Assembly (NCBI RefSeq): GCF_000425285.1
Contig: NZ_AUDD01000004.1
Span: 1-64,000 of the forward strand
Length of the DNA stretch: 64,000 nucleotides
Direction of reading: 5' to 3'
DNA from: Acidipropionibacterium jensenii DSM 20535
Lineage (GTDB): Bacteria; Actinomycetota; Actinomycetes; Propionibacteriales; Propionibacteriaceae
In this document: positions 5,300 to 22,556 of the stretch, one piece after another
Layout of the letters: each line of letters opens with the position of its first letter
Position numbering within the stretch: the first letter of the stretch is position 1
Position numbers and translations under genes: made by a program
Notes under the pieces: generated by a model
The model's input: the letters and a program-made list of their open reading frames with translations, nothing else
What the model was told of the DNA's origin: nothing
The model's database searches: none

Positions 5300-5968
5300 G
5301 TGAGCTTCCTGACCGTTGCCGGGGTGATGGTGCGTCGGTGGTACGTCGTGCTGGTGGCGGTGCTGTGCGCCTCATCGATCGGATACCTCTGGATGAGAGA
5401 CGGCGGCTGCTACAGTGCGGCGACCACGGTGAGCTTCACCCTTCCGGCACGGGCGGCTCTGCTGCCCGACAGTGGTCGTGACGACGCGAGCGTCATCGCC
5501 TTTGCGGGATCGGTGGCGGGGGAGATCAACAACGGCAGGGAACCGGCGACGTATGCGTCCAATGACGCACCTCTCTACGGGGTGGGGGTTCGGCAGGGGG
5601 TGCTGGTCGCCATCCCGAACACCGGGGGGCAGTGGTCGGCCATGTTCTCCAGGGCCGACATCGAGATTCAGATCGTGGGTCGGACCCGGGAGTGGGTGGA
5701 GAGAACGCAGCGCGAGACCATCCAGAAGGTCTTCGAGGTGTCCAGACAACGCCAGGGCGCGGCCTACACGGATCCGCAGAAGTACATCACCCCGACCGTG
5801 ATGCCGCTGACCGGCGGCATTCAGCAGGTGACGGTCGGCCGCCCGGCCCAGATGATGGCCTTCGCGGCCCTGATGGCGGCCGCTCTGCTGGCCGGCGGAT
5901 GGGGTGCCGTGATCGTTGACAGAGGACTCGCCGGACGGCGTCCCCGAGATGAAAGGTCCGCAGCATGA
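5300..5968 (+). CDS. Wzz-like polysaccharide chain-length/co-polymerase membrane protein (short)
   Basis: A 222-residue protein with one membrane helix near the N-terminus (after M-V-R-R-W) and another near residues 185-208, the two-helix layout of Wzz/polysaccharide co-polymerases with an external domain between. The GTG start has GAAGGG seven bases ahead. It lacks a tyrosine-kinase domain. The last four bases overlap the next gene (ATGA), which has the same R-R-W-Y plus hydrophobic start, so the two probably arose by duplication and may act as a hetero-oligomer controlling export or chain length. The family assignment rests on topology and context more than on strong motifs. Confidence 0.6.
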   Translation: MSFLTVAGVMVRRWYVVLVAVLCASSIGYLWMRDGGCYSAATTVSFTLPARAALLPDSGRDDASVIAFAGSVAGEINNGREPATYASNDAPLYGVGVRQGVLVAIPNTGGQWSAMFSRADIEIQIVGRTREWVERTQRETIQKVFEVSRQRQGAAYTDPQKYITPTVMPLTGGIQQVTVGRPAQMMAFAALMAAALLAGGWGAVIVDRGLAGRRPRDERSAA

Positions 5969-7026
5969 CCGTGACCCAGACCTTGCGCGGGCTTCTGCGC
6001 CGCTGGTACATCCTGGTGGTCGGCCTCGTGGTGGCGATCGCCGTGGCAGCGGGAGTCTGGAGTGCCGTGCCGCCCACCTACACGCGCACCTCGACCCAGA
6101 TTCTTCTGCCGGGATCCGGAATGATCCCGAGCGGCAGCAATCCCTACCTGTTCGTCGGAGGACTGGCACCCGCCGCTGACATCATCGTCCGTGGTCTGGG
6201 CTCGAAGAATGTCATCGAGGAGGTCGTCCAGGGCCGTGCCGGGACCACTGTCCAGGTGGCTCGGGACCAGACCACCTCGGGACCGGTGATCCTCATCACC
6301 GTGGAGTCGACGAGTGACCGGGACGCAGCAGCCGTGCTGTCGGCCATGAACCAGCGCACCGCGAGCTTGCTGGACTCCCTGCAGGCCGAGGAGAACATTC
6401 CGGAGCGGCGACGCATCTCGGTGGTGGCCGTCTCGGTCGACAAGCGCGGCACCGCCGAGCAGAAGAAGCGCCTCATGATGACCGGCGCATCGGGGGCCGC
6501 GGTCCTCGCCCTGTCGGTGCTGGTGGCATCCTTCGTCGACGGCGCCGTGCTGCGACGGCGGCGAGCGCGACGGGCGGCGCAGAGCGATGAGGACACGGCC
6601 TCCGACGAGCCGGCCCTCGACGGGCCGCCGGACTCCGAGAAGGGTCCCGGGCCCGACGGGGCAACACGCTCCGAGGAGTCCGCCCAGGCCGATGACGAGT
6701 CGGGCGAGACCTCCGGTCCCGATGCGACTGCGGCAGCCGGGGAGGAGTCGTCGAAGGGTCACCGCGCCGAGTCCGAGGAGGACTCCTCGACCGATGAGGC
6801 CTCGGACGGTGCCGACGGCTCCGAGGACACCGACGGGGTCGATGCGCAGTCCCTGGGTGACCGGGACCCCGCCCGGACCGACGATCCCGAGCAGACTGCG
6901 GTCCGCCCGCAGGCGGACCAGGGCTCCTCGCTGTCCCGGTCGGCGGCCTCCCCCGTGGATCCCGCCGAGGACACCGATCTTCCGGACCGAAGGGGTGACC
7001 GTGGAGAGCGGGCGCCCATTGGGTGA
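5965..7026 (+). CDS. Wzz-like membrane protein with long acidic tail
   Basis: A 353-residue protein. Residues 1-195 repeat the layout of its upstream neighbour: L-R-R-W-Y before a first helix, P-P-T-Y-T-R-T-S-T-Q-I-L-L (typical of the Wzz external domain entry), then a second helix near 170-190. Beyond R-R-R-R-A-R-R lies a cytoplasmic tail of about 155 residues made largely of Glu, Asp, Ser, Gly and Pro, almost surely disordered. Proteins of this class in Gram-positives often work with a separate tyrosine kinase, but the tail has no Tyr cluster and no Walker motif. It overlaps the downstream polymerase gene by 26 bases. The tail may be a docking segment (inference). Confidence 0.65.
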   Translation: MTVTQTLRGLLRRWYILVVGLVVAIAVAAGVWSAVPPTYTRTSTQILLPGSGMIPSGSNPYLFVGGLAPAADIIVRGLGSKNVIEEVVQGRAGTTVQVARDQTTSGPVILITVESTSDRDAAAVLSAMNQRTASLLDSLQAEENIPERRRISVVAVSVDKRGTAEQKKRLMMTGASGAAVLALSVLVASFVDGAVLRRRRARRAAQSDEDTASDEPALDGPPDSEKGPGPDGATRSEESAQADDESGETSGPDATAAAGEESSKGHRAESEEDSSTDEASDGADGSEDTDGVDAQSLGDRDPARTDDPEQTAVRPQADQGSSLSRSAASPVDPAEDTDLPDRRGDRGERAPIG

Positions 7027-8359
7027 TCCGGGGACGGGCAGGGTCGGCGCCGTGGGAATGCTCACGGTCTACCTGCTCTGTCTGCTGGTGATCCCCTCCA
7101 ACGTCACCATCGCCGGCCTGGGAACCTACGGTCGTCCATCGATGCTCTGGGGACTGGTGCTGTTGGCATGGTGGGTGCTGTGGCGGCTGGAGGGAGGGGT
7201 TCCTCCCGCCGGTCGGGACCGTCAGGTGGTGCGGATCGCGATGGGCGCCCTCGCCTTCGTGATCCTGGTGAGCTTCGCCCACGCGATGCTCAGAGGTCAG
7301 CCCGCCGACCAGATCAGCCCGGCGATCGCGGCCCTGGTGCGGACCGCCTCCTGGGGCGGGGTCTTCCTGGTGGCGGTGGACGGCCTGGTCGACACCGATG
7401 ACGTGGTGCGCCTGACGCGGCGGTTGGTGGTGCTCACCGGCCTGATCGCCTGCTTCGGGCTGGCTCAGTTCGCCACCCGGCGGACGATGCTGTCCTGGGC
7501 CGAGGGGATCCCCGGCCTGGTGTTCGGCGCCGACGACTTCTCGTCGCGGGGCATGTTCGCCCGTGCTGTCGGCACAGCGACCCACCCGCTGGAGTTCGGC
7601 GCCGTGGTGGTCGGCATGCTCCCACTGACCATTGCCGCCGCGGTCTCGGGAGGATTCCGCAGGGATCGGGCACTGCGCTTGCGCTGGTGGATACCCGCGA
7701 CCCTCGCCGCTCTGGTCGCCCTGGTCTCGGTGTCGCGTTCGGCCATCGTGGGACTGGCGGTGGCCATCCTGGCATCGATCCCGGGGATGCCCCGCAAATC
7801 CCGCCGGGTGCTCACGGTGGCAGCCGGAGTCGCCGTCGTGGTGGTGGCCGTCGCGGTTCCGGGAATGGCCAGCACGGTCGTCTCGCTGTTCACCGGGGCC
7901 TCCGACGATCCCAGCACTCTGTCGCGCACCAACGCGCTGGCCAGGGTGCCCGACTTCCTGGCCGCATCCCCACTGCTCGGCGCTGGATTCGGCACCTTCC
8001 TGCCGCGCTACTACATCTTCGACAACCAGTGGGTTCTCACCCTGGTCGAACTCGGCATTGCGGGAGCGGCGGCGCTCGCCGCCGTCGTCGTCTCCGCGAT
8101 ATGGAGCGCCGTCATCGCGGCGAAGGGCCTTGACCCCGCCGGTGCCGTGGTGGCGCGAGGAGCGGCGGCCTCGATGCTCACCCTCGCTGTGCTGTTCGCA
8201 TTCTTCGACGGTCTGGCCTTCCCGATGTCAGCCGGTCTGCTGTTCCTGGTGGCCGGTGTGTGCGCAGCCTCGTACCGGATGAGCGCCCGCCCGGAGACGG
8301 CCTCGCGGTTGCCGTCGATTCCGCTCCCCGAGAGCCGGGCCATGAGAGACTCGGTCTAG
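7001..8359 (+). CDS. Wzy/O-antigen-ligase-family polysaccharide polymerase
   Basis: A multi-spanning membrane protein of about 452 residues with some ten hydrophobic helices. The Wzy_C signature is visible: V-S-V-S-R-S-A at the start of a helix, then a long outer loop ending in P-L-L-G-A-G-F-G-T-F and Q-W-V-L-T-L-V-E-L-G. It should polymerise lipid-linked repeat units, or ligate finished chains, at the outer face of the membrane. GTG at 7001 is preferred because AAGGGG lies five bases ahead, giving a 26-base overlap with the previous gene; GTG at 6995 or 7052 are alternatives. It stands between the Wzz-like pair and the GT4 genes, as in Wzy-dependent clusters. No Wzx flippase is seen in the window. 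Confidence 0.8.
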   Translation: MESGRPLGDPGTGRVGAVGMLTVYLLCLLVIPSNVTIAGLGTYGRPSMLWGLVLLAWWVLWRLEGGVPPAGRDRQVVRIAMGALAFVILVSFAHAMLRGQPADQISPAIAALVRTASWGGVFLVAVDGLVDTDDVVRLTRRLVVLTGLIACFGLAQFATRRTMLSWAEGIPGLVFGADDFSSRGMFARAVGTATHPLEFGAVVVGMLPLTIAAAVSGGFRRDRALRLRWWIPATLAALVALVSVSRSAIVGLAVAILASIPGMPRKSRRVLTVAAGVAVVVVAVAVPGMASTVVSLFTGASDDPSTLSRTNALARVPDFLAASPLLGAGFGTFLPRYYIFDNQWVLTLVELGIAGAAALAAVVVSAIWSAVIAAKGLDPAGAVVARGAAASMLTLAVLFAFFDGLAFPMSAGLLFLVAGVCAASYRMSARPETASRLPSIPLPESRAMRDSV

Positions 8360-8385
8360 CTGAGGAGCCGCCCGGGACACGACCC

Positions 8386-9786
8386 ATGCGGCACCGAGCG
8401 ATGGCAAGCCCACTCACCTGTCGAGAGATAGAGGGAGCCGTGCGGAGAAGTCAGCGAGCAGATGGCCGGGACCGGGACCGGCACGTTCTGATCATCGTGC
8501 AGAACCTTCCCGTGCCATTCGACCGCAGGGTGTGGCTCGAGTGTCGGGCCCTGAGGGCCAATGGCTATCAGGTGAGCGTCATCTGCCCCAAGGGACCGGA
8601 GGACAGTTCCCGCGAGACGATCGACGGTGTGCGCATCTACCGCTACCGTCCGCCCCGTGAGGCCAGGGGAGCCCTCGGCTTCGCCGCTGAGTTCGCCTAC
8701 TGCTGGCTGCGCACCGCCATCCTGTCGGTCGAGGTGGCCAGGGCCCTGCCCTTCCGGGTCATCCAGGCCTGCAATCCGCCCGACACCTACTGGCTCCTCG
8801 CCCTGCTCTGGAGACCCGCCGGGGTGCGCTTCGTCTTCGATCACCACGATCTCAACCCGGAGCTGTTCATCTCCCGGTTCGGGCATCCCCGCACGGCGGT
8901 GCAGAAGCTGGAGTACCGCATCCTGTCCCAACTGGAGCGGCTGACCCATCGGACCGCCGACCGGGTCATCTCCACCAACGAGTCGTACCGGCGGATCGCC
9001 ATCGCCCGCGGAAGGGTGAGGCCCTCCCATGTCACGGTGGTGCGAAGCGGTCCCGACACCCGGGTGATGGCCCCCAGCTACCCCAGCCGGCCACGGCCCA
9101 GCGGCGCTGTCGAACTCGTCTATCTGGGCATCATGGGGCCCCAGGACAACGTCGAGATCGTGCTCCACGTGATGGACGAGTTGGTGCACCGTCGGGGACA
9201 CACCGGGGTCCATGCCACCCTGATGGGCTTCGGCGACTCCCTGGAGAGTCTGCGAAGGCTGGCCCACAGGCTCGATCTCGACGACTCAGTCACCTTCACC
9301 GGTCGGGCGGACCGCAGGATGGTCGCGGAGAATCTGAGTCGTGCCGACATCGGTCTGTGCCCCGATCTCAAGACTCCTCTCAACGACCTGTCGACCATGA
9401 ACAAGACGATGGAGTACATGGCCTTCGCCCTGCCGTCGGTCTCCTTCGATCTGACCGAGAGCATGGTGAGCGGCGGGGACAGCATCCTGGTGGTGCCCTC
9501 GGGTGACGTGAGCGCCTTCACCGATGCGGTGGAGAGGCTGATCGTCGACCCGGACCTGAGGCTGAGGATGGCCAGAGCCGCCCGCTCCCGGGTTGCCCGG
9601 GATCTCGACTGGCGGCCACAGGCTGAGGTTTATGTCGGCGTCTACGACTATCTGCTGGGAGTCGAGCGTCCCAATGGCGCCCTCCACGCCGACCTGCCGC
9701 CTCGCAGCAGGGACGAGTGGGGCAACCGCATCGTCCCGCTCGAGGACGAGCACGAGTTCGACCGGTTCATCCTGGAGCGCAGATGA
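8386..9786 (+). CDS. GT4-family glycosyltransferase
   Basis: A GT-B glycosyltransferase of about 466 residues. N-terminal half: H-V-L-I-I-V-Q-N-L-P-V-P-F-D-R-R-V-W-L-E, an opening common in EPS GT4 enzymes, and F-D-H-H-D-L-N-P-E. C-terminal nucleotide-sugar half: F-T-G-R-A-D, T-M-N-K-T-M-E-Y-M-A and the S-F-D-L-T-E-S segment. The start is uncertain: ATG 8386, ATG 8401 and GTG 8440 are all in frame, and only the last has a purine-rich site (GAGGGAG), placed very close. It is followed with a 4-base ATGA overlap by another glycosyltransferase. The donor sugar is unknown. Confidence 0.82.
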   Translation: MRHRAMASPLTCREIEGAVRRSQRADGRDRDRHVLIIVQNLPVPFDRRVWLECRALRANGYQVSVICPKGPEDSSRETIDGVRIYRYRPPREARGALGFAAEFAYCWLRTAILSVEVARALPFRVIQACNPPDTYWLLALLWRPAGVRFVFDHHDLNPELFISRFGHPRTAVQKLEYRILSQLERLTHRTADRVISTNESYRRIAIARGRVRPSHVTVVRSGPDTRVMAPSYPSRPRPSGAVELVYLGIMGPQDNVEIVLHVMDELVHRRGHTGVHATLMGFGDSLESLRRLAHRLDLDDSVTFTGRADRRMVAENLSRADIGLCPDLKTPLNDLSTMNKTMEYMAFALPSVSFDLTESMVSGGDSILVVPSGDVSAFTDAVERLIVDPDLRLRMARAARSRVARDLDWRPQAEVYVGVYDYLLGVERPNGALHADLPPRSRDEWGNRIVPLEDEHEFDRFILERR

Positions 9787-11006
9787 GACGGCCGGCGCGA
9801 CGCCCTCGCGGTGGAGGACAGGGTGAGGGATTCATCTGGTTCGCGGCCCAGGACTGGTGGTACCACAATCAGGCCCACTCCGACTTCCAGCTGATGCGCC
9901 AGGTAGCCCGGAGCCGACCGGTGCTGGTGGTCAACAGCCTGGGGCTTCGCGCCCCCGGACCCAGAACAAGTACCCGACCCGGCAGACGGATTCTCCGCAA
10001 GCTGCGCAGCATGACCAGGTTCCTCAGGCGTCCTGTGCCCGATCTGCCCGGCTTCCATGTGTACACCCCGGTGATGCTGCCGGCCTACGGCCGCAGCGGG
10101 GCGGTCTACCGGTTCAATGCCTGGCTCATCCGGACTCAGGTGAGAGTGGCCGCCCGACTGGCCGGAATCCGGGGAGTCCCGGCGATCGGAGCGACGATTC
10201 CCACCGCCTGGCCGGTCGTGGCGGGGATGGCCCGATCCACACTCGTGTTCAACCGTTCGGACCTGCAGTCGGCCTTCCCGGAGGCGGACGGGCAGTGGGT
10301 CGCCGGTCTCGAACGGAAGTTTCTGACCCACAGTGACCATGTGCTCTACGTGAGCCACGAACTGATGCGCCGGGACTCCTCGCTGGTGGGGGAGCGGGCC
10401 TTCTTCCTCGACCACGGAGTGGATCTGGACCACTTCAGGGCCGATGGCCCCGTTCATCCCCAGATCCTTGAGATTCCGTCACCCCGGATCGGCTTCTTCG
10501 GCGGGATCGACGACTATGTCGTGGATCTCGATCTGATAGAGCAGACGGCGCGCCGGATACCCGATGCCAGCATGGTGCTGATCGGCGATGCCACCTGTTC
10601 GATGGACTCCCTCACCCGCCTGCCGAACGTCCACTGGCTCGGCAAACGCGACTATCGCGACATTCCGGCCCTGGGCCGAGGCTTCGATGTCGCGATCATG
10701 CCGTGGCTCGACAACGAGTGGATCCGATTCGCCAATCCGGTCAAGCTCAAGGAGTACCTGGCACTCGGGCTGCCCGTGGTGACCACCGAGTACCCCGAGG
10801 TCGAGGGGTGGCGTCACCTGGTTCGGGTGGCGGACTCGCCGGACGGGTTCATCGACGAGGTGAGGAGGGCGCTGGCCGATCCGGGTGACCCCGAGCCGCG
10901 CACCCAGTCCGTGATCCCCTACTCCTGGGCCGGTCGGGCCCGGGCCCTCCTGGACAATGCCGGTCTTCTGGACACTGCCGGTCATCAGGACGAGGGAGGA
11001 CGCTGA
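9783..11006 (+). CDS. GT-B glycosyltransferase (GT4-like)
   Basis: A 407-residue protein starting at the ATG that overlaps the previous stop (ATGA). The N-terminal part has W-F-A-A-Q-D-W-W-Y and lacks an obvious G-G-x-E motif, so it belongs to a divergent group. The C-terminal half has the GT-B donor-side features: I-G-F-F-G-G-I-D-D, L-I-G-D-A, N-V-H-W-L-G-K-R-D-Y-R-D-I-P and K-L-K-E-Y-L-A-L-G-L-P-V-V. Similar proteins often sit in exopolysaccharide clusters. It couples to the downstream AsnB gene through a TGATG overlap with GGGAGG ahead of it. Donor and acceptor are unknown. Confidence 0.78.
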   Translation: MRRPARRPRGGGQGEGFIWFAAQDWWYHNQAHSDFQLMRQVARSRPVLVVNSLGLRAPGPRTSTRPGRRILRKLRSMTRFLRRPVPDLPGFHVYTPVMLPAYGRSGAVYRFNAWLIRTQVRVAARLAGIRGVPAIGATIPTAWPVVAGMARSTLVFNRSDLQSAFPEADGQWVAGLERKFLTHSDHVLYVSHELMRRDSSLVGERAFFLDHGVDLDHFRADGPVHPQILEIPSPRIGFFGGIDDYVVDLDLIEQTARRIPDASMVLIGDATCSMDSLTRLPNVHWLGKRDYRDIPALGRGFDVAIMPWLDNEWIRFANPVKLKEYLALGLPVVTTEYPEVEGWRHLVRVADSPDGFIDEVRRALADPGDPEPRTQSVIPYSWAGRARALLDNAGLLDTAGHQDEGGR

Positions 11007-12862
11007 TGTGCGGAATCGGTGGTGTGCTCACCAGGCGAGGGCCGGCCTCCGCCTCCGGACTGGAGAGGATGACCCACTCGCTGCGCCACCGCGGCCCCGA
11101 CGAGTCGTCGACCTGGGTCGAGGACCGTCTCGGACTGACCCACACCCGGTTGTCCATCATCGACCTCGCCGCCTCTCACCAGCCGATGCACGCCGTCGAC
11201 AGATCGTGGAGCGTCGTCTTCAACGGGGAGATCTTCAACTACCGGGAGCTGCGAGAGGACCTGGACTACCCCTTCCGCACCGAGGGTGACACCGAGGTGC
11301 TGGTCGCCGGACTGGTGCGCCATGGAATCCGGTTCGTGGAGAGGCTGCGCGGTCAGTTCTCGATTGCCGCCTATGACCACACCGGTAGGACCCTGCACCT
11401 GGTGCGCGACCGGCTCGGAGTGCTTCCCCTCTACTACCGTCTCGACCACCGTGGGATCGTCTTCGGTTCGGAGATCAAGGCGATCCACGCCTACCTCGCA
11501 GAACCTCCCGAGGTCGACCCCGACAGTCTCGACGGGTACCTCGCCGGACGGTCGGTGCCCGCTCCGTTCACGCTCTTCGCGGGAGTTTCCAAACTGCCTC
11601 CCGGGCATCGCGCCGAGATCGGAGAGTCCGGGGAGCTCCGGGTGGACCGGTACTGGGCGCCGCCCTCGGTCCGTGCCACGGACCTCGATCCGGCGACGAC
11701 GGTGGACGAGGCCGACCGGAGAATTCGTGATGCGGTCCAGGCGGCCCTGGTGGCAGATGTGCCGGTGGGCTCCTATCTCAGCGGCGGGGTCGACAGCAGC
11801 CTCATCGTCGCGGTGATGAAGGAGTTGCGCGGCACGGCGCCGGTCGACACCTTCGCGGCCGGATTCGGCGATCCGCGCGTGGACGAGCTCAACTGGGCGC
11901 AACTGGTCAGCGACCGGGTCGGCACCCGTCACCACCAGGTCGAGGTCCGTGCCGAGGACTTCCTCGCGCTGTGGCCGAGCCTCACCTGGCACCGCGACGC
12001 GCCCATCTCCGAGCCCGCCGACATCGCCGTGTTCAGGCTGGCCCAGACCGCGCGCCAGCACGTCAAGGTCGTCCTCAGCGGGGAGGGTGGCGACGAGCTC
12101 TTCGGTGGCTACCCCAAGTACCGGTTCGCCTCCTGGGGCGGGCGGGCCCGATGGGTTCCGGCGGGCCCGCGCCAGGCGGTGGGACGGTTCCTGGAGGCTC
12201 GGCTGCCGGCCAGCATGGGCCGTCACCGGATCGCCCTGCGGGCTCTCACCGCGGGGTCGGAGGTCAACCAGCTGGGTACCTGGTTCGCTCCCTTCACCGC
12301 GGCCGAGAGGCGCGAGCTGATCGGGCGTGACCCGGCGCCGGAGCGAGCGCGTCAACTGCCCGACGGGACCGACGAGATCGACCGGATGCTGCGCTACGAC
12401 CTGGCGAGCTGGTTGCCCGACAACCTGTTGGAGAGAGGCGACCGGATGACGATGGCCGCCTCCCTCGAGCTGCGCCCGCCGCTGCTGGACCATCGCCTGG
12501 TCGAGTTCGCCTTCGGACTCCCCTCCAATCTCAAGGTCCGTCGTGGCGTCCCCAAGTGGCTGCTCAAGGAGGTGGCCCGGCGCTACCTGCCCGAGGAGAT
12601 CGTCACCAGGCGGAAGGTGGGGTTCCGAGTTCCCCTGGACAGCTGGTTCCGGACCGGTCTGCGCGAGACCGCCCGGGACCGCCTCACCGGCCCGGGCTCC
12701 TTCGTCGGGTCAGTCCTGGACCGCCACGCGGTGTCGCGACTGCTGGACCGCCACGAGGGTGGCGGTCATGACGAGGAGATCCGGATCTGGACCCTGCTGT
12801 CCCTGGAGGTCTGGCACGAGGTCTGCGTCGACGGTTGGGCGAAGGAATGGCGGGCGGCATGA
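11006..12862 (+). CDS. asnB: Asparagine-synthase-like glutamine amidotransferase (first copy)
   Basis: 618 residues of AsnB type. Met is followed directly by Cys2 (M-C-G-I-G-G), the N-terminal nucleophile of the class II glutaminase domain, with R-H-R-G-P-D and F-N-G-E-I-F-N. The synthetase domain has the pyrophosphate loop S-G-G-V-D-S-S near residue 258 and S-G-E-G-G-D-E-L-F-G-G-Y. The family forms an acyl-adenylate and transfers ammonia from glutamine. Its place among glycosyltransferases, coupled front and back, argues for amidation of a sugar acid or acyl group of the polysaccharide rather than for free asparagine. A second, diverged copy lies at 19576-21549. The role is inferred from context. 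Confidence 0.88.
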   Translation: MCGIGGVLTRRGPASASGLERMTHSLRHRGPDESSTWVEDRLGLTHTRLSIIDLAASHQPMHAVDRSWSVVFNGEIFNYRELREDLDYPFRTEGDTEVLVAGLVRHGIRFVERLRGQFSIAAYDHTGRTLHLVRDRLGVLPLYYRLDHRGIVFGSEIKAIHAYLAEPPEVDPDSLDGYLAGRSVPAPFTLFAGVSKLPPGHRAEIGESGELRVDRYWAPPSVRATDLDPATTVDEADRRIRDAVQAALVADVPVGSYLSGGVDSSLIVAVMKELRGTAPVDTFAAGFGDPRVDELNWAQLVSDRVGTRHHQVEVRAEDFLALWPSLTWHRDAPISEPADIAVFRLAQTARQHVKVVLSGEGGDELFGGYPKYRFASWGGRARWVPAGPRQAVGRFLEARLPASMGRHRIALRALTAGSEVNQLGTWFAPFTAAERRELIGRDPAPERARQLPDGTDEIDRMLRYDLASWLPDNLLERGDRMTMAASLELRPPLLDHRLVEFAFGLPSNLKVRRGVPKWLLKEVARRYLPEEIVTRRKVGFRVPLDSWFRTGLRETARDRLTGPGSFVGSVLDRHAVSRLLDRHEGGGHDEEIRIWTLLSLEVWHEVCVDGWAKEWRAA

Positions 12863-14211
12863 CCGACGATCGGCTGAGACGCCGACTGGCCGGTGCGGGC
12901 TACCGGGGGCTGCTGGGTCTCACTGCGCTCACCGACGCCCTTCCCGCCCGCCTCCGGTTCGGACACTGGCAGTCGGTGCTGGCCCTCACCCGACCTGCCG
13001 ACGATCTGCCCGCCGTGCCACGGCCCCCGGGTCCACCGTCGGACGGTCGCGACGCACCGTCCCCTGATCCGGTGCCACACCAGTCCTGGGGGCCGAGCTG
13101 CATGCTGGTGGCCGGTGAGCTGGACGGCGGAGGGGTCGAGCAGGTGGTCGCCACACTGGCCCTGGGGCTGCCCGGCGAGGGGTTCGAGGTGGAGGTGGTC
13201 ACCTCCCGGTCCGGACGGGTCGGGGCAGAGCTGGTGGCTGCCGGGGTGACCGTGACCGTCTGTGACACCGAGGGGCTGGCCGACCTCATCGCCGGACGCC
13301 ACCCCGATGTGATCGAGTTGCACCGGCCCGACCCCGGTCTGGTCTCGGCGGTCGCCGCTTCGCAGAGGCCCGTCATTCCGGTCTTCCACGCCGTCGAGTC
13401 CTACCTTGACTCCGGCGCACGGGCCACACTCGCCGCCCTGTCAGGGTCCGCACCGGCGTGCATCGCGGTCAGCAGCGGGGTGGCCCGGTACTTCTCCGGG
13501 CTGGCGGAGGGGGCGAGGATCTCGGTGGTGGTCAACGGGGTGGCCCCCGACGGCGTCGCCCACGCCCCCGACCGGGTGGGCGCCCGCACCGTCCTCGGGG
13601 AGACGATCGGCTCTCCGATCCTCGATGAGGACATCCTGGTGGTGGCCCTTCAGCGCTACAGCGACCAGAAGAACCCGGCCGGACTGGTGGACGCCTTCCT
13701 GGTGGCGGCCGAGAAGGATCCCCGGATGCGGCTGGTGGTGGCCGGATCACCCGACAACTGGTTGGAGTACCGCCGGGCAGATCTGCTCCGGAGACGATCG
13801 GCGCTTGGCGAGCGGGTGCACCTTCTCGGTGACTCCGACCCGGCGACGATTCTCGCCGCAGGCGACGTCTACGCTCTGGACTCCTTCGCCGAGGGCGGGC
13901 CGCTGAGTGCGGTCGAGGCGGCACTCCATGGTCTGCCGCTGGTGCTCTCCGATGTCGGTTTCGCCAGGGACCTGGTCGGCCGGGAGGGTGTTGTCGGCGA
14001 GGTCGTCGACGGTCCCTGCCCCGGATTCGGCCAGGCCGATCTGGCCAGGGTGCGCCGGCGCCTGCACCAGCCCAACCGGCGACTGTTCGCCGACGCCCTG
14101 GTGCGGGCGCCCGGGCGTGGACGAGGACGATCCGGTCAGGTCCCGGAGCCCTTCACCGAACGCGCGATGGTCGCCGGCCACGCTGGCGTGCTGCGTAGCG
14201 TCCTGGACTGA
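12859..14211 (+). CDS. GT4-family glycosyltransferase, last gene of operon
   Basis: 450 residues from the ATG overlapping the AsnB stop (ATGA); two in-frame ATGs lie further up. Recognisable GT4 elements are G-G-G-V-E-Q-V-V, V-V-N-G-V-A, L-Q-R-Y-S-D-Q-K-N, and F-A-E-G-G-P-L-S-A-V-E-A-A-L-H-G-L, the E-x7-E donor region. The first ~80 residues, rich in Arg and Pro, are not part of the conserved fold. The 3' end overlaps the convergent deacetylase gene by 59 bases. Confidence 0.8.
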   Translation: MTDDRLRRRLAGAGYRGLLGLTALTDALPARLRFGHWQSVLALTRPADDLPAVPRPPGPPSDGRDAPSPDPVPHQSWGPSCMLVAGELDGGGVEQVVATLALGLPGEGFEVEVVTSRSGRVGAELVAAGVTVTVCDTEGLADLIAGRHPDVIELHRPDPGLVSAVAASQRPVIPVFHAVESYLDSGARATLAALSGSAPACIAVSSGVARYFSGLAEGARISVVVNGVAPDGVAHAPDRVGARTVLGETIGSPILDEDILVVALQRYSDQKNPAGLVDAFLVAAEKDPRMRLVVAGSPDNWLEYRRADLLRRRSALGERVHLLGDSDPATILAAGDVYALDSFAEGGPLSAVEAALHGLPLVLSDVGFARDLVGREGVVGEVVDGPCPGFGQADLARVRRRLHQPNRRLFADALVRAPGRGRGRSGQVPEPFTERAMVAGHAGVLRSVLD

Positions 14212-15769: not shown

Positions 15770-15824
15770 GTCCACCACTTCACGTCAGGGCTGGTCCGAA
15801 CCGGAGGTGCGGAAAGTGCTCAAC

Positions 15825-15904: not shown

Positions 15905-17407
15905 ATGAACACGGCTGAGTATCTGCTCGCCGGCGGTGCGGCCGGTGACATTTCTGTGGTGGACTCCGACGGCGCGCACAGCTACGCCGACCTGCGCGGC
16001 GAGGTCGCGCGCCGGCTCGAACTCCTCGACGAGTCGGGGCTGGGTCCCGGCGGCCGGGTCGGGCTGATCGGCGTCAACAGCTTCGGCTGGGTGGCCAGTT
16101 ACCTCGCGGTGCTCGCAGCCGGCATGGTCGCGGTGCCGATCGCCGCCACCCTGCTGCCCGAGGAGATGTTCTCCCGAGTGGAGTGGCTGGGCGTCGGGGC
16201 GACCTTCCTCGGCCCCATCGAGGCGCGCCGGCTGGCGGGTCGGCTTCCGCACACCCTGGACCTCGGATGGGACGGCACCTCGGTGCCCGCCTCGGAGATC
16301 TCCGTCGTCGAGATCTCCGAGGACCGGGACGCCACACTCGAGTTCACCTCCGGGACCACCGGTCGGCCGCGGGTGGTGCGCATCACCCACGGCAACCTGA
16401 TCGCCAACACCGAGTCGATCCTGGGATACCTGCCGTTGACCAGTCGGGAGCGGGTGTTCGTGGTCCTGCCGTTCAGCTACGTCTTCGGCGCCTCCCTGCT
16501 GCACACCCACCTGAGGATCGGCGCGACCCTCGTGGTGCAGCGCAGCGCTGCCTTCCCCCAGCAGATGGTCGACCGGATGGCGTTGGAGCACTGCACCGGA
16601 CTCGCCGGGGTGCCCTCCACATTCGCCGTCCTGCTGCGCAACAGCACCTTCGGACGACAGCCACTGCCCGATCTGCGCCTCGTGCAACAGGCCGGCGGGA
16701 AACTGGCACCTGCGATGGTCGATGAGTTGAGGAGAGCCCAGCCGCAGGCCCGACTGTTCCTGATGTACGGCCAGACCGAGGCCACCGCACGGCTGTCCTA
16801 CCTGCCGCCCGAGGATCTCGACCGCAAACCGGGATCGATCGGTCGGGGAATCCCGGGAGTGAGTCTCCGGGTGGTCGGCGAGGACGGCGCCGAGGTGGCG
16901 CCCGGCGAGGTGGGTGAGATCAGGGCGCGCGGAGGCAACATCTCGCCGGGCTATCTGGACGACCCGCAGGAGACCGCCAGGCGGATGCCCGACGGCGAGT
17001 TGCGGACCGGCGACCTCGCCACCGTCGACGGTGAGGGATACATCTACGTGGTCGACCGTCGCGAGGACTTCATCAAGTCCTGGGGGGTGAGAATCTCCAG
17101 TCAGGAGATCGAGTCGGCCGCTCTTCAGCTCGACGACCTGGTCTCGGTCGCGGTGGTCGGCGTCCCCGACGACGCGGCGGGGGAGCGGGTGGAGATGGTC
17201 GCGGTCCGCAGGGACGGCTCGACCATCACCGAGCAGGACATCCTGGTGCACTGCCGGGCTCGGCTGGCCAGGCACATGGTGCCGGTGGCGGTCCACCTCG
17301 TGCCATTGATTCCCCTCAACAGCAACGGTAAAGTCGCAAAACAAGATGTCCGCGAACTCTGTGTCGGCTGGGGGAGTGCCGATGCGTCTCCGGAAGGGAC
17401 ACCATGA
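15905..17407 (+). CDS. AMP-forming acyl/amino-acyl ligase of the carrier-protein module
   Basis: A 500-residue member of the ANL adenylate-forming superfamily. The P-loop F-T-S-G-T-T-G-R-P-R is at residues 147-156, Y-G-Q-T-E-A near 288, the hinge region R-T-G-D-L-A-T-V-D-G-E-G-Y-I-Y-V-V-D-R near 375, and the catalytic Lys476 in N-G-K-V. It activates a carboxylic acid as the adenylate and passes it to a thiol, either CoA or a phosphopantetheinyl arm. The holo-ACP synthase two genes on and the ACP at 21687 point to loading of that carrier protein. It overlaps the next gene by four bases. Substrate pocket residues cannot be interpreted by eye. The start is set by the leaderless promoter. Confidence 0.85.
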   Translation: MNTAEYLLAGGAAGDISVVDSDGAHSYADLRGEVARRLELLDESGLGPGGRVGLIGVNSFGWVASYLAVLAAGMVAVPIAATLLPEEMFSRVEWLGVGATFLGPIEARRLAGRLPHTLDLGWDGTSVPASEISVVEISEDRDATLEFTSGTTGRPRVVRITHGNLIANTESILGYLPLTSRERVFVVLPFSYVFGASLLHTHLRIGATLVVQRSAAFPQQMVDRMALEHCTGLAGVPSTFAVLLRNSTFGRQPLPDLRLVQQAGGKLAPAMVDELRRAQPQARLFLMYGQTEATARLSYLPPEDLDRKPGSIGRGIPGVSLRVVGEDGAEVAPGEVGEIRARGGNISPGYLDDPQETARRMPDGELRTGDLATVDGEGYIYVVDRREDFIKSWGVRISSQEIESAALQLDDLVSVAVVGVPDDAAGERVEMVAVRRDGSTITEQDILVHCRARLARHMVPVAVHLVPLIPLNSNGKVAKQDVRELCVGWGSADASPEGTP

Positions 17408-18237
17408 CACGAAAACTTCTCCTCGTCGCCCTGGCCGTCACGCTCGTCGTGGTCGCCGCAGCATCGGCGCGGGTACTCCACGGCAGGTCAGCGACGGTGC
17501 CGGCCGCGGTGGAGAAGAAGACCCCCACCGCCACCGAACTCGCATCCTTCAGCGACAGGAAGATCTTCTTCGGGCACCAGTCGGTGGGCATGAACATCAT
17601 CGACGGGCTCCAGGCGACGTACTCCCCCTCGGGCCGTCCGACCCTCACAGTGGTGGAGTCTCGGACGGCTCCTGCCAGGACCGGTGGCTACCTCGCCCAC
17701 GCGCCGATGGGGGTCAACGGTGATCCGATCGGCAAGTTCGCCGATTTCACGACGGTGATGAACGGTTCGATGGGCAAGGCCGTCGATGTGGCCATGCTCA
17801 AGCTGTGCTACGTCGACGTGACCGCGCAGACCGATGTCGACGCGCTGTTCAAGAAGTACTCCGCGATGATGGCTCAGCTCGAGGCCGCACATCCCGACGT
17901 GACCTTCATCTACACGACCGTCCCGCTGACCACTGATCGCGGGTGGAAGCAGAAGATGAAGTCCTGGCTCGGCCGCGATGACCAGATGGGTCCTGCCGAC
18001 AACGCCGCCCGGGAGCGCTTCAACCAGTTGGTGCGCAAGCAGTACAGCCAGACCGGTCGGTTCTTCGACATCGCCGCAGTCGAGTCCACCATGGACAGCG
18101 CACCGGCCGAACGCAAGCGCGACGGTGTGCCCTACTACGTGCTGAACAACGGGCTCGCCGCCGACCCGGGCCACCTCAACGGGGTCGGCTCACGGGCGGC
18201 CGCGGCGGAGTTCGTCAGCGTCGTCGCGGCTCAGTGA
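17404..18237 (+). CDS. Exported SGNH/GDSL-like protein of unknown substrate
   Basis: 277 residues with an N-terminal signal/anchor helix (residues 4-22). The body starts with I-F-F-G-H-Q-S-V-G (Ser60) and ends with A-D-P-G-H-L-N-G, which resembles the nucleophile-serine block and the D-x-x-H block of SGNH hydrolases. Such proteins in polysaccharide clusters act as esterases or O-acyltransferases on sugars. It is coupled by ATGA to the ligase upstream and by GTGA to the holo-ACP synthase downstream, so it should belong to the same pathway, perhaps acting on the acyl group outside the cell. The SGNH call is from motif resemblance only. Confidence 0.55.
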   Translation: MTRKLLLVALAVTLVVVAAASARVLHGRSATVPAAVEKKTPTATELASFSDRKIFFGHQSVGMNIIDGLQATYSPSGRPTLTVVESRTAPARTGGYLAHAPMGVNGDPIGKFADFTTVMNGSMGKAVDVAMLKLCYVDVTAQTDVDALFKKYSAMMAQLEAAHPDVTFIYTTVPLTTDRGWKQKMKSWLGRDDQMGPADNAARERFNQLVRKQYSQTGRFFDIAAVESTMDSAPAERKRDGVPYYVLNNGLAADPGHLNGVGSRAAAAEFVSVVAAQ

Positions 18238-18644
18238 CGCTGCGCGGAGTGGGTGTCGATGTCGTCGACCTGCTCCGCTTCCGCAGCCTGATCGACAGGC
18301 GGGGGCAGGCCCTCGCCAGGCGCTGGTTCGACACCGAGGAGCTGGACCAGCCGGGTGACCGGGCACTGAACCTGGCGCGGAGCTTCGCCGTCAAGGAGGC
18401 CGTTCTCAAGGCCCTCCGCCCGAGCGCGGTGCACCACCCGGCCTGGCGGGAGATCGTGGCCGTCGGGGATGGCGCCGCGATGACAGTGCGGTTGTCCGGG
18501 CTGGTCAAGAGGGAGGCAGACGCCTGGGGTGTCAGGTCGATCTGCGTCACGACGGCGGCGCGCGACCAGATCCTGATCGCGACCGCCATCGCCGAGGTCG
18601 CTCAGACCTCCGGCACCTCGCCCAGCAGCACCGGCCTGTCGTGA
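18234..18644 (+). CDS. acpS: Holo-ACP synthase (4'-phosphopantetheinyl transferase, AcpS type)
   Basis: 136 residues. It carries the two hallmark blocks: G-V-D-V-V-D-L-L-R-F (residues 7-16, Mg-binding Asp) and F-A-V-K-E-A-V-L-K-A-L (51-61, with the catalytic Glu and Lys). It transfers the phosphopantetheine arm of CoA to a serine of a carrier protein. The GTG start overlaps the previous stop (GTGA). Placement in this cluster, with a dedicated ACP at 21687, suggests the pair serves this pathway rather than, or besides, fatty-acid synthesis. Its 3' end overlaps the convergent NadE-like gene by 43 bases. Confidence 0.9.
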   Translation: MTLRGVGVDVVDLLRFRSLIDRRGQALARRWFDTEELDQPGDRALNLARSFAVKEAVLKALRPSAVHHPAWREIVAVGDGAAMTVRLSGLVKREADAWGVRSICVTTAARDQILIATAIAEVAQTSGTSPSSTGLS

Positions 18645-19579
18645 AGATAGGCGGTGGTGCGCCGCTTCTGCTCGATGTCTCGGACCACACGTCCGACCTG
18701 TTCCTCGGTGAGACCGGTAGCCGCGGCGATCTCGGACGTCGGGACGTCGTTGTTGTGGCCGTACAGGCACAGGTCCATGAGGTTGTACGGGAGGCTGAAG
18801 TAGAACTCCTCCTGGGACTGGGGCATCGAGTAGGTGTCGGTGGTCGGCGGCCTGGTCCGAATGCTCTCGGGTACCCCGAGGTACTCCGCCATGGCGTAGA
18901 CCTGCGACTTGTAGAGGTGGGCGATCGGCTTGAGATCGGCCGCCCCGTCACCGAGCTTGACGAAGAACCCCTGGTCGTACTCGAGTCGGTTCGGGGTTCC
19001 GGCCACCGCGTAGTTGAGGCGGTCGGCGTGGAAGTACTCCAGGACCTTGCGGGTGCGCTGCTTGAAGTTGGTGGCCGCCACGATCTCGAGGTAGGCGTCG
19101 GTGGTCAGCCGGTGCGTCTCCTGGCTGCCGTCCGGGGCCTCCACCACGCTCGAGTAGATCCGGTATCGGTCGGAGTCGACCACACTCGGCAGCACGATCT
19201 TCGACCGGTATCCCGGACCGTACTCGGGAACCACCCGGCGGATCGCGTCATCGCGACGGCGGTAGCAGCCGAAGGCCTCCAGCATCGGGGAGATGTCCTC
19301 GTGGCGGGAGTCCACTCCCAGTGATGCGATGAGTTCGGAGCTGATCGGCAGCGTCTCGTCGGAGGACTCGGACTCCGGCAGCTGCAGGGCGAGGACCCGC
19401 TCGGGGCCGAGCGCCCGCACGCACAGGGCGGCCACCACGCTCGAGTCGATGCCTCCCGAGACCGCGACGACTGTTCCCTTGCGCCGGGCTCTTCGCAGGT
19501 AGCTGCGGATGCCCTCGGAGATCCGGGTGGTCTCCGCGGCCTCATCGATGCGGAGGGTCGCTGGGCCGAATGCGGTCAT
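18602..19579 (-). CDS. nadE: Stand-alone NAD-synthase-like ATP pyrophosphatase
   Basis: 325 residues, NH3-dependent NAD synthase fold without the nitrilase-type glutaminase domain. The ATP loop S-G-G-I-D-S-S is at residues 41-47, with A-G-T-P-N-R-L-E-Y, V-K-L-G-D-G-A-A-D-L-K-P-I and L-Y-K-S-Q-V further on. The ATG is chosen because GGAG lies eight bases ahead; its first bases overlap the AsnB stop (ATGA). It may be the cell's NAD synthase, but it is ~50 residues longer than the usual bacterial enzyme and is coupled to an amidotransferase beside a ligase and ACP. Use of an ammonia-channelling pair to amidate a carrier-bound acid is an alternative. Confidence 0.75.
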   Translation of the reverse strand: MTAFGPATLRIDEAAETTRISEGIRSYLRRARRKGTVVAVSGGIDSSVVAALCVRALGPERVLALQLPESESSDETLPISSELIASLGVDSRHEDISPMLEAFGCYRRRDDAIRRVVPEYGPGYRSKIVLPSVVDSDRYRIYSSVVEAPDGSQETHRLTTDAYLEIVAATNFKQRTRKVLEYFHADRLNYAVAGTPNRLEYDQGFFVKLGDGAADLKPIAHLYKSQVYAMAEYLGVPESIRTRPPTTDTYSMPQSQEEFYFSLPYNLMDLCLYGHNNDVPTSEIAAATGLTEEQVGRVVRDIEQKRRTTAYLHDRPVLLGEVPEV

Positions 19580-21549
19580 GATGTGCTCCTTGATCGGTAA
19601 TCGAACACTGCGGGGTCGACGGGGGACTGGGCGGATCGCCTGGCGCGACGGGCCTGATCGAGCAGCAGCTGGGTCGACAGGACGGCCACCAGGCGCATGT
19701 TGTCGGTGTTGCTCATGCCCCGGCCCAGACGCCTGCGCGCCTTCGACATCAGGGCACTGACCATCGCGGGACGGAACACGCCGCTGCGGGAGAGCGCCTC
19801 GGAGGAGGTGACGTCGCCGACCCAGTCCGGTGTGCCTCCCGCGAAGAAACTCGCCGCATCGGGGGCCCGGTAGGGCTGCTTGGGGCGACTCAGGATCTCT
19901 TTCGGGAGCAGATCCCGGAATGCCAGCTTGAGCAGGTGCTTCTCGTCGAGTCCCTTGATCTTCTGCTCGGCGGGCAGGGTGGCGGCCAACCGGCTCACCT
20001 CGACGTCGAGGAAGGGGAACCGTCCCTCGACGGAGTTGGCCATCAGCATCCGGTCGCCCTGCGAGGCCAGGATGTAGCCGGGCAGCAGGGTCCGCATCTC
20101 CAGCCACTGCGCCCGGCCCAGCATCTCCCACCCGGAGCTGTCGGCCGGCATCGCGGCCACCAGGTCGTGGGCCGCCGTCGAGTCCACGCGCAGCTCGGGA
20201 GTGAGCATGGACTTCATCGTCGAGGCGGTCTCCCATCGCGGGCGGTGGGACATCGCCGGGTCGTGGGGATCCAGATTCTGGCCGAAGAACTGTGCGGCGA
20301 AGGCCGGTGCCCGGCCAGGGGACCGCTCCATCCAGGGGTAGAGCTGCATCACGGCGCGCTGACGGGCGTCCGGATCGGGGTCTGCGGCCCACATCTGACG
20401 GACCTTGGCCTCCAGGAAGATGTCATAGCCGGCGAGCACCTCATCGGCTCCCTCTCCGGTCACCACCACCTTGTACCCGCTCTGGTGCACCAACCTCGAC
20501 AGCAGGAACATCGGGGCGGGGGCGGTGCGCAGCAGCGGGTGCTCGGCGTGCCACACCACCTCGGGGAAGATCTCGGCGATGTCTCGCTCTCCGACCTCGA
20601 CCTCGTGGTGCCTTGTCCCGAGACGCCGGGTGAGCAGGTGCTGGAAGTGTCCCTCGTCGTGCTCGGCCGAGTCGAAGCGCAGCGAGAAGGTGCCCACCTC
20701 GACGTCGGTGAAGGAGGCGATGAGGGATGCCGTCACCGAGGAGTCGATACCGCCCGACAGATAGGCGCCGACCGGCACATCGCTGCGCTCGAAGCGCAGT
20801 CGCACCGCCGCGATGAGCCGTTCCCTCAGTTCCTGGGCGTTCTGCTGCTCCGATCCGCCACGACCCGTCGCGGGTTCGGTGAAATCGGGAGTCCAGTAGG
20901 ACGACGTCGAGGAGTGCTTCCCGCTGACACACATCCAACTTCCCGGTGGAACCTGGCTGACCCCCTTGAACGTGGTGACCGGAGCCACCGGTGCCCAGAA
21001 GGTGAGGATCTGGTCGAGACCCACCGGATCCAGGTCCGGGCCAGCTTCCGCGACGGCGAACAGCGCCTTCATCTCGGAGGCGAACCGCAACTCGCCGTCG
21101 TGCCACGTGTAGTAGAGCGGGCGGACGCCGTAGCGGTCCCGGCTGAGGATCAGCTCGTCGGTGCGACGGTCCCAGATGGCCAGCGCCCACTGCCCGTTGA
21201 ACCGGTCGAAGGCGAGTGGACCCCACTCCTCCCAGGCATGGACGATGACCTCGGTGTCGCACCGGGTGCGGAAGCTGTGGCCGCGGTCGGTCAGCTGGGC
21301 CCTCAGCTCCACGTGGTTGAAGATCTCCCCGTTGAAGGTGACCCACACCTGGGAGTCCTCATTGCACATCGGCTGGACGCCGTGGGCGGTGTCGACGATC
21401 GCGAGTCGGGTGTGTCCCAGGGCGACCCTGTCGTCGACGAAGTACCCGCTGCCGTCCGGACCGCGGTGGCGCAGAGCGACCATCATGGTCTCCACCCGCT
21501 CCGGAGAGGGAGGGCGTGCCATCGAGTAGGTGCCACATATGCCGCACAT
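19576..21549 (-). CDS. asnB: Asparagine-synthase-like glutamine amidotransferase (second copy)
   Basis: 657 residues. M-C-G-I-C-G gives the Cys2 nucleophile; A-L-R-H-R-G-P-D-G-S-G and F-N-G-E-I-F-N are glutaminase motifs. The synthetase loop S-G-G-I-D-S-S is near residue 264, followed by T-G-E-G-A-D-E-V-L-A-G-Y-D. It is distinct in sequence from the copy at 11006 and closer to the amidotransferases seen in exopolysaccharide clusters. Its stop overlaps the start of the NadE-like gene, so the two are made together. GGAG lies 10 bases before the ATG, inside a short upstream ORF. Ammonia transfer to a carrier- or sugar-bound acid is inferred. Confidence 0.85.
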   Translation of the reverse strand: MCGICGTYSMARPPSPERVETMMVALRHRGPDGSGYFVDDRVALGHTRLAIVDTAHGVQPMCNEDSQVWVTFNGEIFNHVELRAQLTDRGHSFRTRCDTEVIVHAWEEWGPLAFDRFNGQWALAIWDRRTDELILSRDRYGVRPLYYTWHDGELRFASEMKALFAVAEAGPDLDPVGLDQILTFWAPVAPVTTFKGVSQVPPGSWMCVSGKHSSTSSYWTPDFTEPATGRGGSEQQNAQELRERLIAAVRLRFERSDVPVGAYLSGGIDSSVTASLIASFTDVEVGTFSLRFDSAEHDEGHFQHLLTRRLGTRHHEVEVGERDIAEIFPEVVWHAEHPLLRTAPAPMFLLSRLVHQSGYKVVVTGEGADEVLAGYDIFLEAKVRQMWAADPDPDARQRAVMQLYPWMERSPGRAPAFAAQFFGQNLDPHDPAMSHRPRWETASTMKSMLTPELRVDSTAAHDLVAAMPADSSGWEMLGRAQWLEMRTLLPGYILASQGDRMLMANSVEGRFPFLDVEVSRLAATLPAEQKIKGLDEKHLLKLAFRDLLPKEILSRPKQPYRAPDAASFFAGGTPDWVGDVTSSEALSRSGVFRPAMVSALMSKARRRLGRGMSNTDNMRLVAVLSTQLLLDQARRARRSAQSPVDPAVFDYRSRSTS

Positions 21550-21553
21550 TTTC

Positions 21554-21589
21554 TCAGTGCTCCAGTACTCCGTTGTGCGTCGATCTCAT
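21554..21589 (-). CDS. Putative 11-codon upstream ORF before the second asnB
   Basis: On the minus strand an ATG lies exactly six bases after TAGGCT and opens an ORF reading M-R-S-T-H-N-G-V-L-E-H and stop. Its stop is four bases before the asnB ATG, and the ribosome site GGAG of asnB is inside it. If transcription starts at this ATG, translation of the short ORF would control access to the asnB ribosome site. Prediction only. Confidence 0.35.
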   Translation of the reverse strand: MRSTHNGVLEH

Positions 21590-21595
21590 TGCGAC

Positions 21596-21601
21596 AGCCT
21601 A
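21596..21601 (-). promoter_or_regulatory. -10 element before asnB (drives upstream ORF)
   Basis: TAGGCT on the minus strand, six bases from the ATG of the short ORF and about 47 bases before the asnB ATG. No convincing -35. Confidence 0.45.
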
Positions 21602-21674
21602 ATGGGTGCAATGGTTCACCGGCAGGCCCTCAAAGAGGTGACATGGAATCGGCCCGGGACACCCCTTCACCGGG

Positions 21675-21680
21675 TATGGT
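21675..21680 (+). promoter_or_regulatory. -10 element for a leaderless ACP mRNA
   Basis: TATGGT followed by six bases and the ATG at 21687, with no Shine-Dalgarno sequence. Same arrangement as the ligase gene at 15905, so both plus-strand arms of the module may be expressed as leaderless mRNAs. Confidence 0.55.
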
Positions 21681-21686
21681 CCAGCC

Positions 21687-21947
21687 ATGCAGATCGACGA
21701 CGCCACACTGCGCGAGAAGGTCCGGGGATTCGTCCTGGAGGACCTACTGCTCGGGGACTCCGAAAGGATGCCCTCCGATGACTCCTCATTGCTGGAGACT
21801 GGAGTGATCGACTCCACCGGAATCCTGGAACTCATCGAGTTCCTGGAGCAGAACTTCGGAATCCAGGTGGCCGACAACGAGACGATCCCGGAGAATCTGG
21901 ACGGGATCGACCGCGTCGTCTCCTATGTGCTCAGCAAGCGATCCTGA
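21687..21947 (+). CDS. Acyl/peptidyl carrier protein of the polysaccharide module
   Basis: An 86-residue carrier protein. Ser43 in the block G-V-I-D-S-T-G-I is the site for phosphopantetheine (the usual D-S-L reads D-S-T here), followed by the helix L-E-L-I-E-F-L-E-Q-N-F-G-I. The protein is acidic, as expected. It lies divergent from the second asnB and six bases before the acetyltransferase gene, far from any fatty-acid genes in the window, so it is probably dedicated to this cluster together with AcpS and the AMP ligase. It would tether an acid as a thioester for transfer or amidation. Confidence 0.88.
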   Translation: MQIDDATLREKVRGFVLEDLLLGDSERMPSDDSSLLETGVIDSTGILELIEFLEQNFGIQVADNETIPENLDGIDRVVSYVLSKRS

Positions 21948-21953
21948 CCTGCG

Positions 21954-22556
21954 GTGACCCCGATGGGCGCACTACGGGAGGACATCGCGCGAGGAATGGC
22001 GGCAATGCTGCCGTCGGCCCCCTCCGCACGCACGCGTCTGCAGTATCTGCTGACGAACTCGGAGTTCCACTGCGTCGCGGCGTACCGGTTCGGTCAGCTG
22101 GCCAACGACCTCAGACGTCGGCACTCACCACTGGCGGTACCGGCGCTCGCGGTGCACCGGTTGGTCAACCGGGTCATCACCCACATCGATCATCTGGAGA
22201 TCGCACCGGGAGCCAGCATCGGACCCGGCCTGCTGCTGATGCACCGGCACGGGGTGATCATCGGACCCGCGGTGATCGGACGCCACTGCGTGCTGCACCA
22301 GAATGTCACCATCGGTCAGCGGGTGGCCGGCGGGGACCAGGGAGTCCCGAGACTGGGCGATGACGTCTGGATCGGGCCCGGGGCCGTCATCACCGGAAGC
22401 GTCACGGTGGGTGACGGGGTGGCGATCTCGGCCGGCTCGGTGCTCTCGAAAGACGTCCCCGACCGTTGTCTGGTGGCGGGCAACCCCGCCCGGGTGATCG
22501 CCAAGGACTACGACAACTCCCGGATGATCGGACTCGGCGGGGAACCCGAGTCCTGA
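21954..22556 (+). CDS. Hexapeptide-repeat acetyltransferase (CysE-like)
   Basis: 200 residues with a left-handed beta-helix in the second half: A-P-G-A-S-I-G-P-G-L-L-L-M-H-R-H-G-V-I-I-G-P then repeats I-G-R-H-C, V-T-I-G-Q, V-W-I-G-P-G-A, I-T-G-S-V-T-V-G-D and V-A-G-N-P-A-R-V-I. The H-x-H-G and G-x-x-A-x-I-G pattern is typical of serine acetyltransferases, although many polysaccharide O-acetyltransferases look alike. It follows the ACP by six bases, so it likely acts in the same pathway, acetylating or acylating an acceptor. Start: GTG at 21954, or ATG at 21963; neither has a clear ribosome site. Confidence 0.78.
   Translation: MTPMGALREDIARGMAAMLPSAPSARTRLQYLLTNSEFHCVAAYRFGQLANDLRRRHSPLAVPALAVHRLVNRVITHIDHLEIAPGASIGPGLLLMHRHGVIIGPAVIGRHCVLHQNVTIGQRVAGGDQGVPRLGDDVWIGPGAVITGSVTVGDGVAISAGSVLSKDVPDRCLVAGNPARVIAKDYDNSRMIGLGGEPES

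Follow-up and report, generated by a model that had tools for sequence, protein, structure and literature searches.

Seven genes beside an exopolysaccharide operon of Acidipropionibacterium jensenii, among them a divergent NadE paralogue, as a candidate carrier-protein tailoring module

The stretch analysed here (the window) comprises the first 64,000 bases of contig 4 (NZ_AUDD01000004.1) of the 3.03-Mb draft genome of Acidipropionibacterium jensenii DSM 20535, in which genes were called and then searched against Pfam and NCBIfam, and our subject is a set of seven genes at 15905-22556 that may form a carrier-protein tailoring module. All seven open reading frames are intact and arranged as claimed in a preliminary description of this DNA, and they sit between an operon for a Wzy-type polysaccharide and the ATP-synthase operon. 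From left to right, the order is a GT2/rhamnosyltransferase gene, a beta-helix gene, two Wzz-like genes (both weakly assigned), Wzy, three GT4 glycosyltransferase genes with a second AsnB gene among them (also as previously stated), a reverse-strand PIG-L de-N-acetylase gene, the seven module genes, a gene for a small membrane protein, and atpI-atpB. Overlaps of 4 bp are found at ligase/SGNH (ATGA), SGNH/AcpS (GTGA) and AsnB/NadE paralogue (ATGA), and the 3' ends of the AcpS and NadE-paralogue genes converge in an overlap of 43 bp. The genes for AsnB and the acyl carrier protein (ACP) are divergent neighbours here, whereas in many other loci they are co-directional. An Rfam search of bases 1-26000 gave no RNA match. 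Coordinates and family matches are collected in Table 1.

Table 1. Features of the module, its surroundings and related loci (window positions, unless preceded by a locus handle).
Feature	Coordinates	Strand	Remarks
AMP-forming ligase (adenylation enzyme)	15905..17407	+	core gene; PF00501 (199 bits) and PF13193
Membrane-anchored exported SGNH hydrolase/transferase (predicted)	17404..18237	+	fold model, conserved residues, N-terminal membrane helix
AcpS-type phosphopantetheinyl transferase	18234..18644	+	PF01648, 43 bits
NadE paralogue	18602..19579	-	core gene; PF02540 NAD_synthase, 171 bits; NF002048/PRK00876, 503 bits vs cut-off 313
AsnB-type glutamine amidotransferase	19576..21549	-	core gene; PF00733, PF13537, TIGR01536
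Divergent intergenic stretch between AsnB and ACP	21550..21686	.	
ACP	21687..21947	+	core gene; NCBIfam ACP models, best E 1.9e-12
Hexapeptide (left-handed beta helix) acyltransferase	22005..22556	+	companion gene; PF00132; nearest EpsC/CysE, below cut-off
Exopolysaccharide operon (Wzz-like, Wzy, three GT4, second AsnB)	5300..14211	+	adjoins module
Second AsnB	11006-12862	+	within glycosyltransferase (exopolysaccharide) operon
GNAT-like family members of ~370 aa	L184:22046-23161, L187:10027-11142, L188:4105-5214, L123:4804-6003		
PrmC/HemK-like NPPY methyltransferase	L094:6491-7321, L084:14547-15374, L187:11139-11864		

The NCBIfam models closest to the ligase are PRK06187 and TIGR03098, each below its cut-off, and the catalytic Lys is kept in every homologue aligned. 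At the place of the amino-acid-binding Asp of DltA, this ligase would have Val, and its homologues V, D, C or G. The AsnB of the module has both the MCGI glutaminase start and the SGGIDSS motif intact. For the ACP, the Pfam PP-binding match is only sub-threshold; its predicted pantetheine site is Ser43 (IDSTG), and the serine of this DST/DSx motif is conserved across the homologues listed.

The SGNH protein is weakly identified in Pfam; its predicted structure (predicted local distance difference test, pLDDT, of 91) has SGNH hydrolases as its structural matches. A sequence search against solved structures found no match, but the fold comparison did, and Ser60, Asn105, Asp254 and His257 are conserved, i.e., the Ser, Asn and Asp-x-x-His of the superfamily are present. 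Given the N-terminal membrane helix, it is reasonable to regard this protein as exported. DltA, DltC and DltD are an AMP ligase, a small carrier and a membrane-anchored SGNH protein, and proteins of these three kinds stand together in the module, as they would in a Dlt-like system whose ligase and carrier deliver an acyl group across the membrane to the SGNH protein. We consider such a system highly improbable here, since the search for an MBOAT protein (PF03062, DltB type) found none in the present genome or four congeners, and AsnB and the NadE paralogue are foreign to Dlt; the hexapeptide transferase is a further difference. A Dlt D-alanylation system was rejected on the lack of MBOAT in these five genomes. 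Because no MBOAT is present to feed the SGNH protein, editing, or transfer from another donor, appears a likelier role for it than Dlt-type export.

The NadE paralogue, which carries the database label of a NAD synthase, has the NadE fold and the SGGxDS PP-loop, and the best structural matches of its predicted model are NadE (Z 28, root-mean-square deviation 2.8 over 238). It does not match the motifs of the nicotinic acid adenine dinucleotide site of ordinary NadE: TPNRLE replaces TDHAAE and PTTDT replaces PTADL, both replacements being invariant or nearly so in homologues, and an insertion of about 45 residues, modelled with three short beta strands, lies near 104-165. The preliminary description had allowed that AcpS and NadE might be the sole copies in the genome and co-located by chance; there is, however, a separate NadE on contig 11, whose frame is long like that of glutamine-dependent NadE, as well as two AcpS domains beyond the module copy. 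Another NadE was also found in 23/23 further genomes tested. Judged by its sequence, the paralogue is a separate subfamily and not the housekeeping NadE, and it is very likely not a NAD synthase; a nucleotide-like substrate is possible. Were it an active NAD synthase, a second one placed here with no functional link to its neighbours, its fold, PP-loop, retained GFFxKxGDG stretch and annotation would all be accounted for, but the altered motifs, the insertion, the other NadE in every genome tested and the linkage to AsnB, ACP and ligase that is conserved across phyla leave this reading hardly credible. As a separate observation, apparently two copies of the paralogue accompany an ordinary NadE in G459 and G460 (Phycisphaerales loci L069 and L085) and in G464 (Geobacter locus L121).

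The linkage of the core genes was traced by an alignment search with the NadE paralogue, which gave at least 568 coding matches in many phyla, with 80 loci kept; adding five loci of relatives and two found in a phylum sample brought the test set to 87 loci, from which the profiles were built. Two control sets consisted of 20 loci around ordinary NadE and 20 arbitrary loci. Profile matches in the test loci (ligase 74, AsnB 74, ACP 67, SGNH 33, AcpS 22) are descriptive counts, not proof, as the loci were picked by the NadE paralogue and are phylogenetically non-independent, and the AsnB profile also picks up second AsnB genes. In the ordinary-NadE controls, AsnB, ACP, SGNH and AcpS were all at 0 and the ligase profile matched 8/20 (generic AMP ligases), so the presence of a ligase alone is not specific; the arbitrary loci gave 0 for all five profiles. 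With AsnB in 74/87 and ACP in 67/87 test loci against none in either control set, the linkage of AsnB and ACP to the NadE paralogue is far above chance. Divergence was also correlated with that of the paralogue for AsnB (rho 0.42), ACP (0.29) and ligase (0.20) over all loci, and for each of them 0/300 permutations were as high.

The four-gene core of AMP ligase, ACP, AsnB and NadE paralogue was complete in 47 of the 64 loci longer than 14 kb (20/23 actinobacterial, 27/41 others). AcpS was found in 18/23 long actinobacterial loci vs 1/41 of the others, and all seven genes in 11/23 of the former; AcpS accompanies the core mainly in Actinobacteria, as do the exported SGNH protein and the hexapeptide transferase. 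What had been taken for one actinobacterial system with a NadE homologue as a local addition is therefore better described as a core widespread over many phyla, to which the NadE paralogue belongs. The paralogue occurred in 3/396 genomes of an actinobacterial sample, including the present one. Surface-polysaccharide markers were present in 40/64 long loci, compared with 0/20 and 2/20 in the control sets.

Within the genus, three congeners (G001, G002 and G004) have the exopolysaccharide operon and the module, with AcpS missing at that site, so AcpS is the dispensable part. The fourth (G003) has neither operon nor module; a small membrane gene followed by atpI-atpB is found there, with apparent prfA, prmC, tsaC and wecA upstream (by position and sequence), and no GT4b or SGNH homologue was found anywhere in that genome. 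Operon and module are thus co-present or co-absent throughout the genus genomes compared, and this co-inheritance, with the conserved linkage, bears out the earlier claim of a thioester-type module tied to a polysaccharide locus. Among 57 relatives, SGNH occurs in exactly those six having the NadE paralogue, two of which belong to other genera and are without the GT4b of the present operon; the module therefore looks like a unit able to sit beside different polymers.

What the data show directly is the presence of the genes, the families they belong to, catalytic motifs that are intact, a linkage that is conserved, and a paralogue distinct from housekeeping NadE; we infer that the module ligase loads the ACP, and likewise the amidations and the order in which they occur, as well as acid and acceptor. 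The ligase would adenylate a carboxylic acid and load it onto the ACP, which is probably primed by the module's own AcpS. AsnB would free ammonia from glutamine and amidate the carrier-bound acid or its acceptor, and the NadE paralogue would form a second ATP-dependent amide or use the AsnB-derived ammonia. A companion acyltransferase, i.e., the hexapeptide protein here and GNAT-like or other proteins elsewhere, would transfer the product to a polysaccharide precursor, and the exported SGNH enzyme may edit or transfer it outside. On balance, we lean towards the seven genes being such a carrier-protein tailoring module, with an acid held on the ACP, amidated and moved to a polymer, and a model with an amidated substituent is plausible.

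Several points weigh against this. The simplest model would do with one amide-forming enzyme instead of two, the enzyme steps are all read from sequence, the NadE paralogue retains the GFFxKxGDGxxD stretch of ordinary NadE, and at the thresholds used at least one core gene is missing in 17/64 long loci. In addition, the core stands alone, with no adjoining glycosyltransferase genes, in Sinorhizobium and Nitratireductor, so in some organisms the product may be something other than a polysaccharide substituent. In plasmid records, the bare operon asnB-ACP-ligase-nadE, which is compact in rhizobia, is annotated for Sinorhizobium medicae, Nitratireductor, Mesorhizobium and Shinella, with a 4-bp overlap of ligase and nadE in the annotated four-gene operons; a translation search found the same order in S. 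meliloti GR4, and the paralogue is on 76 Sinorhizobium plasmid records. The stand-alone operon of Sinorhizobium lies near minCDE (L184:8168-12978 on S. medicae plasmid pMl3; L185 and L190 in S. meliloti).

These stand-alone operons, and the 390 bits (cut-off 570) that AsnB scores against the N-acetylglutaminylglutamine amidotransferase, an osmolyte enzyme, would suit a core that makes a free small amide metabolite (such as an osmolyte or a signal), with polysaccharide loci only as hosts and with SGNH and hexapeptide proteins doing ordinary glycan O-acetylation. We find this unlikely, although it deserves attention, in view of the marked enrichment of surface-polysaccharide genes around the core, the co-inheritance with the exopolysaccharide operon in the genus, the exact match of SGNH and NadE paralogue over the 57 relatives, and the dedicated ACP, which suggests transfer from a carrier.

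The dinucleotide-site motif kept in part by the NadE paralogue also bears on a nucleotide-sugar substrate, given that UDP-uronate, like deamido-NAD, may be viewed as a dinucleotide-type carboxylate; the paralogue or AsnB could then amidate a nucleotide sugar (e.g., uronic acid to uronamide), while ligase and ACP would N- or O-acylate that sugar in a second tailoring reaction. AsnB enzymes of O-antigen clusters are commonly assigned to uronamides, which also favours it. However, the glycosyltransferase operon already holds a second AsnB, and the four core genes are packed into tight operons also where sugar genes do not adjoin, and we see rather little chance for it, somewhat less than for a free metabolite.

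Tailoring on the ACP can be compared with several known systems. In the O-antigen cluster of Vibrio cholerae O1, the AMP ligase RfbL activates 2,4-dihydroxybutanoate and puts it on CoA or on the carrier RfbK (PMC12208996); the module likewise has an AMP ligase and a dedicated carrier within a surface-polysaccharide locus, but that source describes RfbL and RfbK without AsnB, NadE paralogue or AcpS. Among the glutarimide-polyketide starter enzymes (ChxD/ChxC, GdsD/GdsC), an AsnB homologue beside an ACP was proposed to amidate a carrier-bound dicarboxylate, converting malonyl-ACP to malonamyl-ACP (PMC7756379), although there the acid comes from an acyltransferase and not an AMP ligase, no NadE paralogue takes part, and the product feeds a polyketide synthase. 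The nicotinamide mononucleotide (NMN) synthetase of Francisella is a NadE homologue with a shifted substrate, and the source on it also covers a two-subunit NadE that a separate glutaminase supplies (PMC3376133); these match the module in the changed substrate and in the pairing of NadE with a glutaminase gene, whereas in the module the NadE paralogue is partnered by a full AsnB that has a synthetase domain itself, and by ACP and ligase as well. For the NadE paralogue of the module, the change of substrate is a proposal.

Exopolysaccharide loci with the exosortase XrtA are a further comparison: among polysaccharide-linked models, the ligase and AsnB of the module are closest to TIGR03098 and TIGR03108, but with 298 of 592 and 393 of 817 bits both stay under the cut-off. 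As stated in the preliminary description, there is no exosortase, PF09721 being unmatched in G000, G001, G002 and G004, and an XrtA locus was rejected on this ground. The contrast drawn with exosortase clusters stands for this locus but not for the core in general, which occurs with an exosortase in 8/87 test loci. What would be new, then, is the addition of two amide-forming enzymes to ACP-borne acyl tailoring of a known kind. No description of this gene set was found in open-access full-text literature; few subscription papers were covered, so this is weak evidence of novelty. That the core is a widespread undescribed module, in which NadE paralogue and AsnB jointly act on a carrier-bound acid to give a new amide substituent of surface polymers or an amide metabolite, is a tentative proposal that falls a little short of an even balance in our judgement.

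Outside Actinobacteria, other acyltransferase-like genes stand beside the core, with GNAT or Acetyltransf_6 in some loci. A GNAT-like family of ~370 aa, mostly without a significant Pfam match, was seen with the core in Alphaproteobacteria, and a homologue adjoins the core in L045. A PrmC/HemK-like methyltransferase with an NPPY motif neighbours the core in five loci, as it does in Mesorhizobium. Known examples of NPPY enzymes methylate the nitrogen of amides or amino groups, which fits an amide product that this protein possibly N-methylates. Directly before AsnB in 13 mostly actinobacterial loci, outside the present window, there is an ACP-like protein of ~70 aa without the pantetheine serine (e.g., L048:7783-8001 and L053:7771-7989), matching the C-terminal half of ACP with a probability of 96%.

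As to the surroundings in the window, the PIG-L de-N-acetylase (14153-15778, minus strand) is lipoprotein-like and could free amino groups of the polymer as acceptors. The GT2 glycosyltransferase gene (2313-4151, PF00535 + PF11316) is fused with a putative rhamnosyltransferase domain and flanked by genes for two related beta-helix-like proteins (471-2066 and 4471-5232), one with an N-terminal DUF4082. Upstream of the exopolysaccharide genes, at the window edge (4-354), the translation indicates an integrase-core/transposase-like fragment.

If the proposal is true, many genes labelled NAD synthase and asparagine synthase would fall into a common carrier-protein route to an amide, often linked to cell-surface polymers, and the NadE fold would have, besides the Francisella NMN synthetase, a further case of a shift to a new substrate. 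The short stand-alone operon of Sinorhizobium makes the module testable in a standard laboratory organism.

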